A stretch of 9,248 nt of DNA from Candidatus Desantisiibacteriota bacterium (GTDB lineage Bacteria; JACRDZ01), in the NCBI GenBank assembly GCA_016209155.1, contig JACQWU010000027.1, positions 1-9,248 on the forward strand, written 5' to 3'. Both the position numbers and the translations under genes were made by a program. Shown one piece after another: positions 1 through 6,209 of this stretch (position 1 is its first letter; the number at the start of each line of letters is the position of its first letter). Below the pieces are notes generated by a model that was not told the origin of the DNA, ran no database searches, and saw only the letters and a program-made list of their open reading frames with translations.

Positions 1-122
1 AATAAATTAAGACCAATGAATCCTGTAAAATAAATCCAATTTTTACTATGAAAATAAAACAAAAATAAACTAATCAAAATAAAAATTCCGGCAATTAGCC
101 TTAGCCATCTTTCTTGAGACAT
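1..122 (-). CDS. DUF2892 / YgaP-like small inner-membrane protein (3' end beyond window)
   Basis: The reading frame opens with ATG at 122 and stays open to base 1, giving 40 visible codons that begin MSQERWLRLIAG and continue through a hydrophobic stretch to a YFTGFIGLNL motif. This matches my memory of DUF2892 proteins: an N-terminal xxxRWxRLIAG followed by two short membrane hairpin segments and an FxGLNL motif. The missing C-terminal part should be about 25 residues. An SD (GAGGTG, 130-135) lies 7 nt before the ATG, and the gene starts 23 nt after the stop of the barrel pseudogene, so it is probably the last visible cistron of the ArsR-led unit. DUF2892 domains are often fused to or encoded beside rhodaneses, as in E. 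coli YgaP, whose operon partner YgaV is an ArsR-family repressor; that parallel is inference here. Function of the isolated domain is not settled. The family call rests on motif recognition of a partial protein. Confidence 0.8.
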   Translation of the reverse strand, partial: MSQERWLRLIAGIFILISLFLFYFHSKNWIYFTGFIGLNL

Positions 123-145
123 ATTGTATCACCTCTTCTTTTTAT

Positions 146-1379
146 TTAAAAATTATACTTTACTCTCATATAAACATTGTCGTTTTTCTGAAACTGTCCG
201 AATGTTGTATAATTTTTATCTCCTTCTATAAAATTACCTCCTGCTGTTAACATCAGATCATCAGTCATCTTGTATGATATTTCCGGAATCAGCATATAAT
301 CTTTTTCTGTAATTCCATAAAAACCAAACAATGACAGTTTCCATGTTTCATATTTTAAAAATTGTGTCAGCCGCAATGTGACTGTCTGCCTGGTTTCGTG
401 TTCCAGTGGAAATCCTGGAACAGGATTATTTTTGTATTTCTGATAATCACTCATTATTTCACTATAATACTGCGCTCCCAGATGCAAATTTTCATTTATC
501 TGCCGCCCATAACCTAGAAGATATTTATATTTAGAATTATCTATAAACGGATCGCTGCCTTTTTTATCCTCACGGGAATCATAATATCCTGCTTCCACGC
601 TGACAACTCCGCCAAGTGAGTTTATTTGATAGCTTGCTCCATATACATTGAGTTCAGGATAAAAATAAGTCACGTTGGTTGAGTTATATGTCTTTATACC
701 CGGCACATGATAAAATCCTTTGTAAAAATAAAAGGAAATATCTCCTGCTACTGTCTGATGAAAAATCCGTAAACCTGTCTCAATATCTTTTATTTTTTTA
801 TCCGGGTTTTGAGTTGTTTTATTTTTGATATCAGCAAACGGATCAAAAAAAATAAATTTATCTGATAATGGCAGATTATCACTTTTAAATGCCGGCATTA
901 TAACTAATTCCATTGATACAAAATTCGGATATAACGAAATTTTAATAGCTTCCGATATCCTGTCCGGAATAAAACGCATTCCAGTCTTTTGGAAAAATAT
1001 CATTTATAAAAAGTAAATCACCTGTACCCCATGTGATAACCTGTTCTCCAATTCTAATATCATAATTTTTACCTGTTGAATTTATATACATTTCTCTTAA
1101 ATCTATTTTGGTTTCATTAATTGTACCATCGTGTATAAAATCAATCTTAGCTTGAAAATTAGCATCGCTTGTCTGCGAATATGAGTTAATATCAAGACGT
1201 AATTTTTCTTCACTTAAAATTAAATCTCTATCTTTTTCATCACTTTTAGTTCTAAAGGAATATGTTCCAAGTCCGAATCCATGCATATTCATTTCTGATG
1301 CCTGTGTAGAGACGCAAAATTTTGCGTCTCTACTTGAAAATATAAAAAAAATTAAAAGTAAAATTAGTTTTTTTTTCAT
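146..1379 (-). pseudogene. Outer-membrane beta-barrel protein (DUF1302-like), frameshifted
   Basis: Two overlapping frames make one protein. The N-terminal frame (1379-942, 145 aa) has a signal peptide and runs to the conserved block WGTGDLLFINDIFPKDW, then stops shortly after FYSGQD. The C-terminal frame (usable to 146) resumes at SEAIKISLYPNF and ends in a barrel with terminal Phe (VYMRVKYNF). In relatives as I remember them, these blocks are joined by about seven residues (like EYLKxP), which are absent here. A deletion of 3n+2 bases (about 20) near 957-952 would explain both the loss and the frame change. Total length, about 400 codons, fits an intact family member. The start overlaps the upstream stop (ATGA), with AGGAGG at 1388-1393, 8 nt before the ATG. 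A 28-bp palindrome also lies within the signal-peptide codons. It would be the outer-membrane end of the RND/LolA-like route. Sequencing error remains possible. Confidence 0.8.
1306..1333. repeat. 28-bp perfect palindrome, copy 1 (inside the signal-peptide codons)
   Basis: The half-site GTAGAGACGCAAAA is followed directly by its exact reverse complement, with no spacer. It is identical to the copy at 2191-2218. Here it lies in the coding sequence of the barrel pseudogene, read in frame as roughly RDAKFCVS between a hydrophobic signal-peptide core and the mature N-terminus. As RNA it could fold into a long hairpin about 45 nt after the start codon. Very similar GTAGAGACG...CGTCTCTAC palindromes are, as I recall, dispersed in many environmental bacterial and cyanobacterial genomes as small repeats. 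Confidence 0.95.
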
Positions 1380-2170
1380 TCCAGATACCTCCTCTGAGGA
1401 TTTTGCATAAATCTTTCTTCAAATAAATCATCTCCGATTCCAATATTATATTTTATATTGTTATACAACACTTCAGTATAATTGCCTGTTTTTACATCTT
1501 TCATTATTCTTTTCATTATTGTTGGAAATCCGTCAATGTCTTTAATTTCCTCTGCTGTAAAAACTTTTTCAAGCTCATCAGATGAATTGTAATATTCTTC
1601 TTTACGCGGTAAAAATTTTTCCCCATCTATCCATGATAATTTACGTGAAAATTTATCTTCTTCTTTTGGAATGCTTTGAATCACAAAACAATCTATTCCA
1701 TTTAATTTTTCTTTTCTAAGCAATTTATAATTATCAAGTGAAATATCTCTTCCGGATATATCTTCATAAGTAAAATCAGAACCGACAAAACTCGAATGCT
1801 TATCACTTGATGCAATACGTCTTACCATTTTTAATGCAGGAATAAATAGCCAGCGCAGGTCGTCTTTATCCGGTAATTTATGTACCATAAAAGTCATATC
1901 GCGAAAATCCTGCGGTTTTTCAAAATAAATAAAAAATTTTTGTTCTCTGTTTGCAAGATTTTTACGCAGCATAATAAGTTTACGCTGCCTCTCTTTCCCT
2001 TCACGATTAACAAGCCGCATGGATACATTAGCTTTCATATCAGCAGCTTGATAAAAAAAGACTTCCTGCGATTTAACTGCAATTTCATCCGCGGACATTT
2101 CAGCATAAATAGATTTTATGCTGCCAAGCAGTATGATTACCAGCATTAACTTTGTGATATTTTTTTTCAT
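1376..2170 (-). CDS. LolA-like periplasmic protein (outer membrane lipoprotein-sorting family)
   Basis: A 264-aa exported protein. Residues 1-23 form a Sec signal peptide (MKKN start, hydrophobic core, likely cleavage after IYA); no lipobox Cys is present, so it is probably soluble in the periplasm. The family hallmark is at about residues 107-137: RWLFIPALKMVRRIASSDK followed by SFVGSDFTYEDI, which I recognise from the LolA-like proteins annotated 'outer membrane lipoprotein-sorting protein' (PF17131 type). Full length for that family. The LolA fold is a half-barrel that shields acyl chains, so it is expected to carry a lipid or lipid-like cargo from the inner to the outer membrane. It lies between an RND/MMPL transporter and a barrel gene, the usual company for this family. 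SD AAGGAG is 8 nt before ATG 2170, and a palindromic repeat separates it from the transporter. The specific cargo is unknown. Confidence 0.87.
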   Translation of the reverse strand: MKKNITKLMLVIILLGSIKSIYAEMSADEIAVKSQEVFFYQAADMKANVSMRLVNREGKERQRKLIMLRKNLANREQKFFIYFEKPQDFRDMTFMVHKLPDKDDLRWLFIPALKMVRRIASSDKHSSFVGSDFTYEDISGRDISLDNYKLLRKEKLNGIDCFVIQSIPKEEDKFSRKLSWIDGEKFLPRKEEYYNSSDELEKVFTAEEIKDIDGFPTIMKRIMKDVKTGNYTEVLYNNIKYNIGIGDDLFEERFMQNPQRRYLE

Positions 2171-2190
2171 TATTTTTTCTCCTTTTATAT

Positions 2191-2218
2191 GTAGAGACGC
2201 AAAATTTTGCGTCTCTAC
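2191..2218. repeat. 28-bp perfect palindrome, copy 2 (intergenic)
   Basis: Identical to the copy at 1306-1333 (half-site GTAGAGACGCAAAA and its exact reverse complement). It fills half of the 57-bp gap between the RND transporter stop and the LolA-like start. It ends a few bases before the SD of the LolA-like gene, so in the mRNA the hairpin would stand just upstream of that ribosome site. The flanks of the two copies do not match clearly and I see no convincing target-site duplication. Confidence 0.95.
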
Positions 2219-2227
2219 TACAGTATT

Positions 2228-4528
2228 TTATTTCACTACTTCTTTATGAAAAAGCCGGATAAGACCTGGCAGATAAATAATACTCATTGCTGCTGATATA
2301 AGCATAATAACTGCCATAAGTACTCCAACTGTTATATATGGGGTAAGGTCTGCAAACACCATAACAAGAAAACCTAATGCAAAAAGAATGGCATTTAAAA
2401 AAATCCCTTTGCCGGGACGTTCTACTGTCCATATTAAAGCGTCATCCAGCTTTGGAAATTCTCTATAGCGATGTTGAAATCTACCGACAAAGTGAATTGC
2501 AAAATCAATTGCAAGCCCCAGAGACAGAGTTGAAAGCACAGCTACAGGCATATCAAAATCCTTTCCAATCAGACCGACAACACCATAGATTATTAAAATT
2601 GTAAATATGAGAGGCAAAAAGCTTATAACCCCTAACAATAGCGACCGTGTTTGAATAATTAAAAGTATTAGAACCAGTATTAATCCCCATAAAAAACTTT
2701 CCACCATACCCCATAAAACTTCGCTATTCCAGACAAGATTAAAATAAGCAATCCCCGCAGGTTGTATTTTTGCTCCGCCGGGAAGCGGACTTTTTGCTAA
2801 ATATTTATCTGTTCGTTTAATAATATCTTCCATAACTCCTGCATCCCATGTTTTAAGCTGAAGATGAATTATTGCTTTCTGAAATGGATAATCTACTACA
2901 TTATTTAAATCTTTTTGTTTTGCAGACATACTGAATAAAAAGATATATTGCCCTATTTCATCACTCGAATCCGGTATCCGATCATAATTTGGATCATCAT
3001 TATGTAATACCCGATTTATGCGTTTAACATAATCTGCGACAGAGAAAGTTTTTCCTACACGAGGATCTTTTTCCAATTCTTTCTGAAGATTTTCTATTCC
3101 CTTTAGCATCGCCGGATCTTTTATTGAATTTTCAGTTTGCGTCTCAATAACTAAATATGCTGTTGATGTACCGCCCAGATGTTTATTCATAATCCTGTCT
3201 GCTGTCCTGATAGGACTTGAATATTTAAACCAATTAACCATATTGTTATTTACTTTGATTTTATAAAGACCGACCCCCGAAATTATCAATAATATCCCGC
3301 CAAAAGCAGCTATTCCTTTAGCATATTTTATGCAAAATTTTCCTAACTGTGTTAAATACGATTGTGAGGAAACCTCTTTTTGTTCAGGATTTTGAGTGAT
3401 TTTTAAAATGCTGTCTTCTTTAATTAACATTAATATAGCAGGTACTAATGTAAAACTCATTAAAAGTATTACTAAAGTTCCAAATCCAATAAATAATCCA
3501 AATATTTTCACCGGAACTATGGATGCTGTTGCCAAAGAGGCAAATCCTACAGCAGTTGTAATATCGGAATAAAAAACAGGATTCGCAACCACAGCCATTG
3601 TGTCAATAACCGCACTGCGCTTATCGCGAACCTCACGAAATCTAAAAGCAAATTCATTAAAAATATGAATACTATCAGTAGCAATTGCCATTAAAAAAAC
3701 CGGACTCATTGAACTCATAATATGCACCGGAAATTTCATCCCGATTAAAAGCCCCATGCACCATATTATGCTAACCATTGCAACGGACATATTTGCAGCA
3801 ATTAGCGGAACACTGCGAAACATTATCCATATTGCAATGCACATAACAATACCAGCAATTGGAGAAAACAGTCCCATTTGACGAAACATCTCAATGCCGA
3901 ATGTGTCACGCGCTACAGGATCTCCTGCCAGATAATATTCATCATCACCGGCATCCTTCGGGAGAAGTTGTTTGATTTTATCAGCAACTTCCTTGCCATT
4001 AACTGCCGGTTTAATAGGAACATATATTGCTGTAGCAGTTGCATCAGGTGAAATAATGCGATTAACAAACAAAGGATTTTTTATAATAGATTTTTTCAAC
4101 AGTTCCAATTCTTTATCTGTTTCAGGAATACGTTCCAGTACCGGTTTTGCAATAAGAGTATTTTCTTCTGACAAAACATTATCAATAGTGGTAAAACTTA
4201 TAATATCCTGTGAAATAACTCCTGATATCTTTTTAATTTCATTGGTAAATTTTGTAATTCGTGAGAGTGTTTTTTTATTTATTACCCCATTTTTATTCAC
4301 AATCCCCAGTACTATAACATCAGCATTTAATTCAAAATCTTTTTCAACTTTATCATTATTTTTACGTACAGGTGAAGCTTGCGAGAGCATGTGCTTTGGA
4401 TCGGTATCAATAGTAATTTTAGGAAATTGAATTGCAAATAAAATAGTTATAAAAATTGTTAGTAAAATAATTAATTTTGGATGATCTACTGAAAAAATTG
4501 CTAATTTGGTTAACATCTTTATAAACAT
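2228..4528 (-). CDS. RND superfamily transporter, MMPL / HpnN-like
   Basis: A 766-aa inner-membrane protein with the two-fold RND plan. TM1 is at about residues 17-36, a first periplasmic domain at 37-220, TM2-6 at 221-370, TM7 at 403-422, a second periplasmic domain at 423-608 and TM8-12 at 611-757. Each half keeps the acidic TM4 residue of the proton relay: Asp285 in ATDSIHIF and Asp675 in AIDFAIHF; the first half also has the typical TTAVGFASL. Periplasmic loops of about 185 residues, smaller than in AcrB-type pumps, and the LolA-like and barrel neighbours place it with MMPL-type lipid exporters (HpnN-like), using proton-motive force. Cargo is unknown. I chose ATG 4528 (MFIKML) because AAGGAG lies 8 nt upstream; an ATG 30 nt earlier (4558) has no SD of its own. 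The gap to the ArsR gene is 64 nt, so cotranscription is likely. Confidence 0.9.
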   Translation of the reverse strand: MFIKMLTKLAIFSVDHPKLIILLTIFITILFAIQFPKITIDTDPKHMLSQASPVRKNNDKVEKDFELNADVIVLGIVNKNGVINKKTLSRITKFTNEIKKISGVISQDIISFTTIDNVLSEENTLIAKPVLERIPETDKELELLKKSIIKNPLFVNRIISPDATATAIYVPIKPAVNGKEVADKIKQLLPKDAGDDEYYLAGDPVARDTFGIEMFRQMGLFSPIAGIVMCIAIWIMFRSVPLIAANMSVAMVSIIWCMGLLIGMKFPVHIMSSMSPVFLMAIATDSIHIFNEFAFRFREVRDKRSAVIDTMAVVANPVFYSDITTAVGFASLATASIVPVKIFGLFIGFGTLVILLMSFTLVPAILMLIKEDSILKITQNPEQKEVSSQSYLTQLGKFCIKYAKGIAAFGGILLIISGVGLYKIKVNNNMVNWFKYSSPIRTADRIMNKHLGGTSTAYLVIETQTENSIKDPAMLKGIENLQKELEKDPRVGKTFSVADYVKRINRVLHNDDPNYDRIPDSSDEIGQYIFLFSMSAKQKDLNNVVDYPFQKAIIHLQLKTWDAGVMEDIIKRTDKYLAKSPLPGGAKIQPAGIAYFNLVWNSEVLWGMVESFLWGLILVLILLIIQTRSLLLGVISFLPLIFTILIIYGVVGLIGKDFDMPVAVLSTLSLGLAIDFAIHFVGRFQHRYREFPKLDDALIWTVERPGKGIFLNAILFALGFLVMVFADLTPYITVGVLMAVIMLISAAMSIIYLPGLIRLFHKEVVK

Positions 4529-4536
4529 ATAAGTTT

Positions 4537-4542
4537 CTCCTT
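4537..4542 (-). promoter_or_regulatory. Ribosome binding site that sets the RND transporter start
   Basis: AAGGAG on the minus strand, 8 nt before ATG 4528. It falls inside the longer alternative reading that would start at 4558, so the shorter start is preferred. The SD context AAAAGGAGAAA is repeated before the LolA-like gene. Confidence 0.8.
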
Positions 4543-4592
4543 TTATTATGCTATTCATATATTATAATAAATGAATGTTTTGTATCTAAAAA

Positions 4593-4925
4593 TTATTTCT
4601 CATCAAGTTTTTGGGCAAATTCCGCATTCTTGTGAATTTTGGCATATAACATTTCACGAACAATATCAAATGCTTTAAGTATACGTTTATCAGCGAGCGA
4701 GTAATAAATATTAGTTCCATCCCGGCGAGTCTCGACAATCATTTTATCTCGCATTAAACTTAAATGCTGTGAAATATTAGACTGATGAAGTCCTGTTGCT
4801 TTTTCAAGTTCAGTTACACTTTTTTCCCCATCGCGTAAAATATTTAATATTTCCAATCTTTTCGAATTGGTAAAAATCTTACACATCTCAGCATGCATTT
4901 CATAAATTTTTTTATCTATATCCAT
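4593..4925 (-). CDS. ArsR/SmtB-family winged-helix repressor
   Basis: A 110-aa DNA-binding protein. Residues 11-34 carry the ArsR-type helix EMCKIFTNSKRLEILNIL, residues 36-60 the helix-turn-helix (SVTELEKATGLHQSNISQHL) and residues 62-76 the beta wing ending in GTNIYYSL. Members usually bind promoters as dimers and release on metal binding or thiol modification. The classical alpha3 metal motif (CxC) is absent and there is only one Cys (Cys15), so a two-Cys persulfide switch of the SqrR/BigR kind is not evident; the inducer cannot be named. I start at ATG 4925 because AAGGA lies 8 nt before it. The upstream ATG at 4958 has no SD and falls at about the predicted transcription start. First gene of the unit with the RND, LolA-like, barrel and DUF2892 genes. 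Probably autoregulated through the palindrome at 4960-4985. Confidence 0.9.
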   Translation of the reverse strand: MDIDKKIYEMHAEMCKIFTNSKRLEILNILRDGEKSVTELEKATGLHQSNISQHLSLMRDKMIVETRRDGTNIYYSLADKRILKAFDIVREMLYAKIHKNAEFAQKLDEK

Positions 4926-4933
4926 AAAATATT

Positions 4934-4938
4934 TCCTT
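4934..4938 (-). promoter_or_regulatory. Ribosome binding site that sets the ArsR start
   Basis: AAGGA on the minus strand, 8 nt before ATG 4925. The in-frame ATG at 4958 has only A/T-rich promoter sequence before it and no SD, so the shorter protein is preferred. Confidence 0.7.
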
Positions 4939-4959
4939 ATATGACTCTTCTTATCCATT

Positions 4960-4991
4960 AATATATTAGAATATTAGAATATATTTGTCAA
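4960..4991 (-). promoter_or_regulatory. sigma70-type promoter with overlapping candidate ArsR operator
   Basis: On the minus strand, TTGACA (4991-4986) is followed by a 17-bp spacer and TAATAT (4968-4963), so transcription should start near 4956. Bases 4960-4985 form a 26-bp imperfect palindrome: AATATATT at both ends and AATATT in the centre, with 22 of 26 positions symmetric and only the two AG steps breaking symmetry. The palindrome exactly fills the spacer and -10, the position from which a bound ArsR dimer would exclude RNA polymerase. It also contains a direct repeat of ATATTAGA. The promoter strength is seen; binding by the adjacent ArsR is inferred. Confidence 0.75.
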
Positions 4992-5021: not shown

Positions 5022-5741
5022 TTAAAACCATCTGACAACTCCCAGCCCAATTCCAAAATCAGGAGAATCTTTATTTAATCCTAAAAATGTATTACCTTTT
5101 AAAGAATATTGTTTATTTAAAATTCTAAAAAACCCCATATAAAATGCCAGGGGATTGCTTCCATTAATACTCAGATATTTTCTTCCTTCAAGAGAAGCAT
5201 ATATATTTGTTATTGCAAATATTTTCGAAAGCGTTAATCCATAAGGTAAAATATCATCATAACTTTGTAAAGCCGAATCACCTGTTTTTATAAAACCTGT
5301 TGAAAGAGATAATTTTATTTCTTTTAAACTTTTTTGAAAACTGATAAATGTACCATAATCTCTATTCCCTGTACTAAGTCCTTTATTTTCATTTCCTGTA
5401 GGCAGTTTTAGTGTAATTGCGCTATCAAGTCCAAAGTTATTGTTTTCTTCGGGAATAACTTCAAAATTAACATTTAAGATAGTATCTCCAATATCATTGA
5501 CATTATTCGAACCCGTTGTAAGAGATAAGTATGGAAGTGTTATATTAACATCATAAGTAGATGTAATATATCCTAAAGAGGGACTTTCATAATAAAGATT
5601 GGTGCGAGAGGAAGTTCCAAAATCACCTGTTTTGTAACCTCCCCCCATTTCCAGATAAACATTTCCTTTTTCTAATGCGTAAATATTTGGCAGTAAAAAT
5701 AGTATTGCAAAAATAATTTTTTTTATGAAATTTAAGCGCAT
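5022..5741 (-). CDS. Outer-membrane beta-barrel protein, transporter / MetA-pathway-like family
   Basis: A 239-aa exported protein. Residues 1-22 form a signal peptide, likely cut after IYA. The rest shows alternating beta strands and ends in a Phe-terminated strand (GIGLGVVRWF), the usual signal for barrel insertion. The central block GLDSAITLKLPTGNENKGL followed by STGNRDYG is like the KxPTGxxxKGLGTGxxDYG motif I remember from proteins annotated 'transporter' (PF13557, phenol MetA-like), so this is probably a small outer-membrane pore. Its ATG directly follows the TAA of the Met-rich gene with no spacer, so translation is probably coupled; its own SD is poor. The pair recalls CopB, which joins a Met-rich N-terminal region to a copper-linked barrel, but here the parts are separate genes and the barrel family may differ. 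Substrate unknown. I see no terminator between it and the ArsR promoter. Confidence 0.75.
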   Translation of the reverse strand: MRLNFIKKIIFAILFLLPNIYALEKGNVYLEMGGGYKTGDFGTSSRTNLYYESPSLGYITSTYDVNITLPYLSLTTGSNNVNDIGDTILNVNFEVIPEENNNFGLDSAITLKLPTGNENKGLSTGNRDYGTFISFQKSLKEIKLSLSTGFIKTGDSALQSYDDILPYGLTLSKIFAITNIYASLEGRKYLSINGSNPLAFYMGFFRILNKQYSLKGNTFLGLNKDSPDFGIGLGVVRWF

Positions 5742-6209
5742 TTATTCACTCTTTTTTTCTTGTTCCTGCTTTTTTTCTTTCATCATTTTATCCATTGTTT
5801 CATTCATATTTTTCATTTTATTTTTCATTTTTTCCATATTTTCATGATCCATTTTACCTGTTTTCATCTGTTCCGACATATCATTCATCATTCCGGACAT
5901 ATTTTTCATCATGTCTGCCATTTCTTTTGTTTTATTCGCGTCCATTGACATTCCATGCTCCATGGTGTTTGACATTTTACCCATCATATTATTCATTTGT
6001 TTCATCATATTGGACATATCCTGCATCATTTTATGATCCATCATTTTATCGCTCATCATTTGCGATGATTGATCATGCCCCATTCCTTTATGCATTTTCA
6101 TGTCATCATTTTTTTTTTTTTCTATCATCCCGCCGCCCATTTCCGCAAAAGTCTGTATACTTATAAAACAAAAAATAAAAGATAGTACTATCAAATTTTT
6201 TTTTATCAT
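5742..6209 (-). CDS. Exported methionine-rich helical protein, possible metal binder
   Basis: A 155-aa protein with a Sec signal peptide (residues 1-22, likely cleavage TFA/E). The mature part has 37 Met in 133 residues plus five His, many Lys, Asp, Glu and Asn, and no Cys. From about residue 62 to 143 the Met residues keep one heptad register: positions 62, 69, 76, 83, 97, 104, 111, 125, 132 and 139 on one face position, and 65, 72, 79, 100, 107, 128, 135 and 142 on the next. That predicts long amphipathic helices with a Met stripe. Met/His-rich periplasmic proteins often bind Cu(I) or Ag(I); this is inference, as I recognise no named family. A very strong SD (AAGGAGG, 6218-6224) lies 8 nt before ATG 6209. 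An A13 tract encodes Lys31-Lys33. It abuts the barrel gene. Confidence 0.8.
   Translation of the reverse strand: MIKKNLIVLSFIFCFISIQTFAEMGGGMIEKKKNDDMKMHKGMGHDQSSQMMSDKMMDHKMMQDMSNMMKQMNNMMGKMSNTMEHGMSMDANKTKEMADMMKNMSGMMNDMSEQMKTGKMDHENMEKMKNKMKNMNETMDKMMKEKKQEQEKKSE

Follow-up and report, generated by a model that had tools for sequence, protein, structure and literature searches.

A conserved ArsR-led RND, LolA-like and DUF1302 gene unit with sulfur-gene neighbours, possibly an envelope efflux system of reactive-sulfur physiology

The closest studied system to the gene unit described here is AmeABCD, which protects against apolar monoterpenes and has been proposed to export them (PMC6394551). 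Deleting it in Castellaniella defragrans lowered monoterpene tolerance and increased Nile Red accumulation, which was read there as export (PMC6394551). Like AmeABCD, our unit combines an HAE3-type RND pump, a LolA-superfamily periplasmic protein and a DUF1302 outer-membrane protein in one cassette (PMC6394551). It lies in a 9,248-base stretch of a Candidatus Desantisiibacteriota genome (GCA_016209155.1; hereafter the window), which begins at base 1 of contig JACQWU010000027.1 (C3). The source genome comprises 3.08 Mb in 352 contigs and is 79% complete. All five genes of the unit are on the minus strand, in the order ArsR, RND, LolA-like, DUF1302-type barrel and DUF2892. We read the unit as an envelope efflux system that is under repressor control and belongs to reactive-sulfur (chalcogen) physiology, in other words an AmeABCD-like route adapted to reactive sulfur, and give this reading a probability of about 0.5.

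A scan of 84,980 species genomes, in which the RND of the window served as query, yielded 79 loci (48-69% identical), covering at least 16 phyla according to organism titles, mainly Nitrospirota (36) and Omnitrophota (18). Counting genes on the same strand as the RND gene and within 5 kb of it, a LolA-like gene is found in 68/79 loci, a barrel in 65/79, an ArsR in 58/79 and a YgaP/DUF2892 gene in 16/79. Six loci (L018, L019, L020, L021, L068 and L086) keep the full order ArsR-RND-LolA-barrel-YgaP, and close variants occur elsewhere. All five families occur together in 19 loci, including two from the phylum of the window (L126, L128) and three far relatives at 31-38% identity (L130, L136, L139). 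This co-occurrence, with the order kept across phyla, puts the composition and order of the unit well beyond chance, and bears out the grouping of these five families in an initial annotation of the window.

The recurrent extra neighbours, named by their Pfam families, are three kinds of DsrE, DsrH, an SQR/FCSD-like flavoprotein, a YeeE-type Sulf_transp protein, TauE, rhodanese and redoxin. Of the 79 loci, 51 have one or more sulfur genes (DsrE, DsrH, SQR-like, YeeE, rhodanese or TauE) within 5 kb. The figure for distant MMPL loci is 2/40 (Fisher p 7e-11), and both sulfur-positive controls (L125, L126) are close relatives of the unit. The sulfur genes are also almost always oriented with the RND gene (142 codirectional, 2 opposed), whereas the other large open reading frames (ORFs) of these loci are split 204:117 (p 9e-20), so the pattern is not explained simply by sulfur genes being abundant in these genomes. 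Sulfur-trafficking genes are the commonest neighbours, which supports the original suggestion that this ArsR-led envelope route belongs with sulfur biology. Judged by gene neighbourhood, a sulfur or chalcogen context for the unit is likely.

In L126, from the same phylum as the window, the order is ArsR-membrane protein-DsrE-RND-LolA-barrel-YgaP-SQR, the SQR gene being split. In the deep relatives, other genes take the place of this set: a thioredoxin (L130), a DUF302 protein (L136), and a rhodanese with a metallo-beta-lactamase-fold protein (L139). On plasmid pILYOP01 of Ilyobacter polytropus (L170, 2471-9553), genes for SelD, YedF and a Se/S carrier stand directly upstream of LolA-barrel-RND, possibly a selenium version of the unit in a cultured bacterium. 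What the neighbours share, those of the deep relatives included, is a role in sulfane-sulfur or selenium handling. Next to rhodanese and YeeE, Nitrospirota units also have a gene for a conserved secreted protein without a Pfam match (about 139 residues; L051, 3176-3595), which has homologues in 9 loci.

This association follows the phylogeny of the pump. We built two trees, one of 112 RND proteins with FastTree and one of 43 with IQ-TREE under a mixture model. In both, a single long-stemmed clade with a support of 100 takes in all RNDs that have an ArsR, a YgaP or a sulfur gene as neighbour. The RND of the window is inside this clade. RNDs outside it often keep LolA and the barrel, but have no ArsR, YgaP or sulfur neighbour, and the linked or unlinked state requires three changes in the 43-RND tree. 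Host phyla are mixed within the clade, the window's RND grouping with sequences from Schekmanbacteria, Lentisphaerae, Acidobacteria and Zixibacteria, which suggests horizontal transfer.

In the mechanism we propose, ArsR would sit at its own promoter and keep the operon blocked until a persulfide, polysulfide or zero-valent sulfur (S0), or perhaps a metal or thiol signal, frees it from the promoter. The HAE3 RND pump would collect a hydrophobic or reactive cargo, either in the periplasm or at the outer leaflet of the inner membrane, the LolA-like protein would shield this cargo through the periplasm, and the DUF1302 barrel would be its exit. The YgaP-like membrane protein would handle sulfane sulfur at the inner membrane. 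The AmeABCD analogy points to an outward route and a hydrophobic cargo, and on this analogy outward transport is probable. The sulfur neighbours rank a zero-valent sulfur species or a sulfur-bearing hydrophobic molecule first among possible cargoes, export of a lipid under sulfur stress second, and metalloid efflux or uptake lower. Our best guess is a cargo of zero-valent sulfur (S0 or long polysulfide) or of a sulfur-loaded hydrophobic molecule; that sulfur itself is carried is a doubtful proposition. Less likely still is a dedicated, ArsR-controlled trans-envelope exporter of S0 (selenium in some lineages), with a LolA-like shuttle from RND to barrel, widespread in anaerobic subsurface phyla.

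The properties of the carrier also fit a different cargo. The LolA-like protein has 264 residues and a signal peptide, and matches PF17131 at 2e-56 and DUF1329 at 6e-7. Its AlphaFold model (predicted local distance difference test, pLDDT, 90.6) matches LolA3 of P. gingivalis (9tp6; template-modelling scores 0.82/0.91) and the DUF1329 structures 4z48 and 3bk5. These closest folds would suit a role in lipid or envelope remodelling, in which the RND-LolA-barrel trio moves a hydrophobic pigment or a membrane lipid, either out of the cell or to another site, and sulfur species act only as the inducing stress. LolA folds bind acyl chains, RND/LolA-like pairs have been assigned to aryl-polyene lipid localisation (PMC8253772), and the hopanoid transporter HpnN is among the HAE3 kin (PMC6394551). 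However, genes for lipid or polyketide synthesis do not recur around the unit, while sulfur-transfer genes do so in the majority of loci, and the sulfur link is confined to a single RND clade, outside which the same trio occurs without sulfur genes. We consider lipid remodelling rather unlikely, though it is the alternative that survives best.

The features of the window are listed in Table 1. With the RND start at 4528, the gaps between the five genes are 64, 57, -4 and 23 nucleotides, exactly as the initial annotation gave them. The RND ORF could also open at 4558; we prefer 4528 for its better Shine-Dalgarno sequence (AAAGGAGAAACTTATATG). The RND protein matches PF03176 at 6e-37 and TIGR00921 at 8e-64 (216 bits), the latter being its best NCBIfam match but under the cut-off of that model. 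The same-strand upstream genes at 5022-5741 and 5742-6209 were ruled out as members of the unit, since they have no homologues in any related locus. The pair (minus strand) consists of a secreted 155-residue protein that is very rich in Met, Lys and Asp (5742-6209) and a barrel-like protein of 239 residues with a weak Pfam match (5022-5741).

Table 1. Coordinates of the unit and associated features in the window.
Feature	Coordinates	Strand	Basis
Promoter and candidate ArsR operator	4960..4991	-	Near-palindrome, layout kept in relatives
ArsR/SmtB-family repressor	4593..4958	-	PF01022, NF033788
RND/MMPL transporter, HAE3 group	2228..4528	-	PF03176, TIGR00921
28-bp palindromic repeat, RND-LolA gap	2191..2218	.	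Exact copy of dispersed repeat
LolA-like periplasmic carrier	1376..2170	-	PF17131, DUF1329, AlphaFold model
DUF1302-type outer-membrane barrel, split	146..1379	-	PF06980, alignment to relatives
28-bp palindrome, second copy, barrel signal-peptide region	1306..1333	.	Dispersed repeat
YgaP-like transmembrane protein (DUF2892), first 40 residues	1..122	-	PF11127

The ArsR protein has 121 residues, or 109 if an internal ATG at 4922 is used, and scores 7e-13 with PF01022, 2.9e-23 with NF033788 and 63 bits with the BigR model (cut-off 155). It shares 26-56% identity with the ArsRs upstream of related RNDs. Its sole cysteine, C26, is at least 90% conserved among these; a second cysteine, at position 97, is present in about half of the family members and is F in the window. 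Upstream of arsR is a promoter, TTGACA-N17-TAATAT, at 4991-4963, and a 26-bp near-palindrome, AATATATTCTAATATTCTAATATATT (4960-4985), spans its spacer and -10 box. Three loci whose ArsRs are among the nearest to that of the window (L019, L021, L086) have a matching layout, with TTGACA-N17/18-TAATAT within CTAATATTCGAAYATA. More broadly, a TAGTTTCGAAATA-type palindrome site occurs in 11/30 arsR upstream regions vs 8/1200 random windows. These comparisons show a conserved promoter-operator upstream of arsR, and operator-type palindromes at arsR support ArsR as a probable repressor of its own operon.

The promoter call rests on this conservation and not on the consensus match, because the window is AT-rich and its 48 promoter-like sites do not exceed chance (46.8 expected from shuffles). 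Of the observations that the initial annotation named as refuting, such as a separate promoter for the RND gene, none was made outright: gene order is kept in relatives, and the promoter-like site in the ArsR-RND gap (4590-4561) is within chance expectation.

An ArsR-family repressor could also indicate metal or metalloid resistance, in which a thiophilic metal such as arsenic is sensed by ArsR and a thiol or methylated conjugate is expelled by the pump. Besides the family membership itself, the methyltransferases and ArsP_1 permease that lie close to certain Omnitrophota units would fit this explanation, as would the derepression of the E. coli ygaVP operon by tributyltin (PMC9774250). However, the recognition region of the window's ArsR has no CxC motif, no arsenic, cadmium or copper cluster recurs among the neighbours, and sulfur-transfer genes dominate there, which leaves metal resistance improbable. 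That the route instead runs inward, taking up a hydrophobic or sulfur substrate for sulfur oxidation or disproportionation, is just as hard to sustain: the YeeE, DsrE, SQR-like and rhodanese neighbours of Nitrospirota units are indeed typical of sulfur import and oxidation, but HAE3-type RND pumps export (AmeD, HpnN; PMC6394551), and papers on the YTD and DsrEFH systems do not mention the RND-LolA-barrel trio.

At the other end of the unit, the DUF2892 protein is cut at 40 residues, ahead of the conserved CP motif, because the window starts at the first base of the contig. The fragment matches PF11127 at 9e-5, and 15/16 relatives have the Cys. The visible part contains no rhodanese domain, as the ORF opens straight into the DUF2892 segment, and the YgaP-like relatives stand alone, mostly with about 60-120 residues. 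The likeness to YgaP seen in the initial annotation therefore extends to the transmembrane (DUF2892) part and not, in the visible part, to a rhodanese. A second, divergent YgaP-like gene is found elsewhere in the genome, on contig C109 (L167, 4921-7023), where it adjoins a gene for a CoA-disulfide-reductase fused to rhodanese (548 residues). This is a separate persulfide-handling locus of the same genome.

Several observations weigh against a reactive-sulfur efflux system. No sulfur gene is visible inside the window, and in a search of its own genome neither DsrE nor an SQR orthologue was found; as this genome is only 79% complete, that absence is weak evidence. The sulfur genes that the genome does carry (the CoA-disulfide-reductase-rhodanese, the second YgaP and one YeeE, on contig C63) lie outside the window. 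The 40 control MMPL loci were chosen without matching phyla. In Omnitrophota, S-adenosylmethionine-dependent methyltransferases and a nucleoside phosphorylase recur by the unit (L014, L018, L077, L078 and others), and S0 export does not account for them; the methyltransferases may possibly methylate a chalcogen or thiol compound. In the LolA-like protein, C161 was ruled out as a sulfur-carrying residue, since it is not clade-specific and is also present in 18/31 LolA proteins of a second set, mostly outside the clade.

The repressor presents a similar difficulty. In an alignment, the cysteine pair of BigR falls on N44 and approximately Y105 of the window's ArsR, so the pair is absent and a YgaV/SqrR-type dithiol sensor is ruled out. 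The initial comparison of this ArsR with YgaV holds at the level of the fold, without the sensing dithiol of YgaV, SqrR and BigR. Many ArsR regulators near sulfur genes lack this cysteine pair (PMC12423496).

The barrel gene, finally, is split in the assembly at about position 956 into frame 1 (945-1379) and frame 2 (149-1003). Relatives align to frame 1 up to about 957 and to frame 2 from about 955, with 7-8 residues missing, equivalent to a deletion of about 20 nucleotides that takes out a YLK motif invariant in 43 relatives. The barrel of the window matches PF06980 (DUF1302) at 7e-5 with 22.4 bits, just under the cut-off of 23.2, compared with 1e-6 and 28.3 bits for the orthologue in L009, the closest relative, whose model (pLDDT 91.2) is a porin/AlgE-like barrel. 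The initial annotation described a complete envelope route; this does not hold in this genome, where the broken barrel may leave the export route incomplete. Both 28-bp repeats are copies of a perfect palindrome, GTAGAGACGCAAAATTTTGCGTCTCTAC, that is dispersed through the genome: allowing up to 2 mismatches, there are 27 sites (two in the window and 25 elsewhere) vs 0 expected in shuffles. The copy in the RND-LolA gap would form a strong RNA hairpin. Together, the broken barrel and the palindromic repeats may mean that the unit is decaying in this genome, or that the assembly is at fault.

To our knowledge, it is an open question how bacteria carry elemental sulfur, which does not dissolve in water, across two membranes, and a single literature search on it found nothing. 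An RND-LolA-barrel unit tied to sulfane-sulfur genes by both neighbourhood and phylogeny supplies concrete candidate genes for this transport. Even with a lipid cargo, it would provide a testable context for the LolA_like, DUF1302 and DUF2892 genes of Omnitrophota, Nitrospirota and other phyla.

The initial annotation knew of no described system with this exact composition, and none was found in the literature we searched, although the RND-LolA-DUF1302 core is known as AmeABCD (PMC6394551). Several known systems share parts of the unit. The aryl-polyene proteins ApeL/ApeM/ApeN likewise combine an RND pump with a LolA-like carrier and a proposed hydrophobic cargo, but have a LolB-like partner in place of the DUF1302 barrel and are accompanied by polyketide-type synthesis genes (PMC8253772). 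The YTD sulfur-disproportionation cluster shares the DsrE and YedE/YeeE-type genes that adjoin many relatives of the unit (PMC12998232). However, the set of yedE, tusA and dsrE is absent from the window, the genome having no DsrE and its YeeE on another contig, and overlap with published YTD or DsrEFH clusters was ruled out, as RND, MMPL and LolA go unmentioned there.

The regulators SqrR, BigR, SoxR and sHdrR share the ArsR fold and have SQR, YeeE, TauE and rhodanese as neighbours, whereas the ArsR of the window is without their defining dithiol and its candidate operator is not the ATTC-N8-GAAT reported for SqrR (PMC10451225, PMC12423496). RND pumps in the vicinity of such sulfane-sulfur regulators receive a brief mention in the literature (PMC12423496). 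In the sulfide-responsive ygaVP operon of E. coli, an ArsR-family repressor is cotranscribed with a YgaP-type membrane protein (PMC9774250), similar to the two ends of our unit. In the window, by contrast, the DUF2892 protein is without rhodanese, the ArsR is without Cys31 and Cys98, and the RND-LolA-barrel trio lies between the two. AmeABCD itself differs in having AmeC (COG4447), a 451-residue DUF1329 AmeB and a terpene-island location, with no ArsR, YgaP or sulfur genes described (PMC6394551); an AmeC-type gene was found neither in the unit of the window nor among the recurrent neighbours. If our reading is correct, the AmeABCD-type route would serve hydrophobic cargo as a general chassis, and inorganic metabolism would have recruited it.

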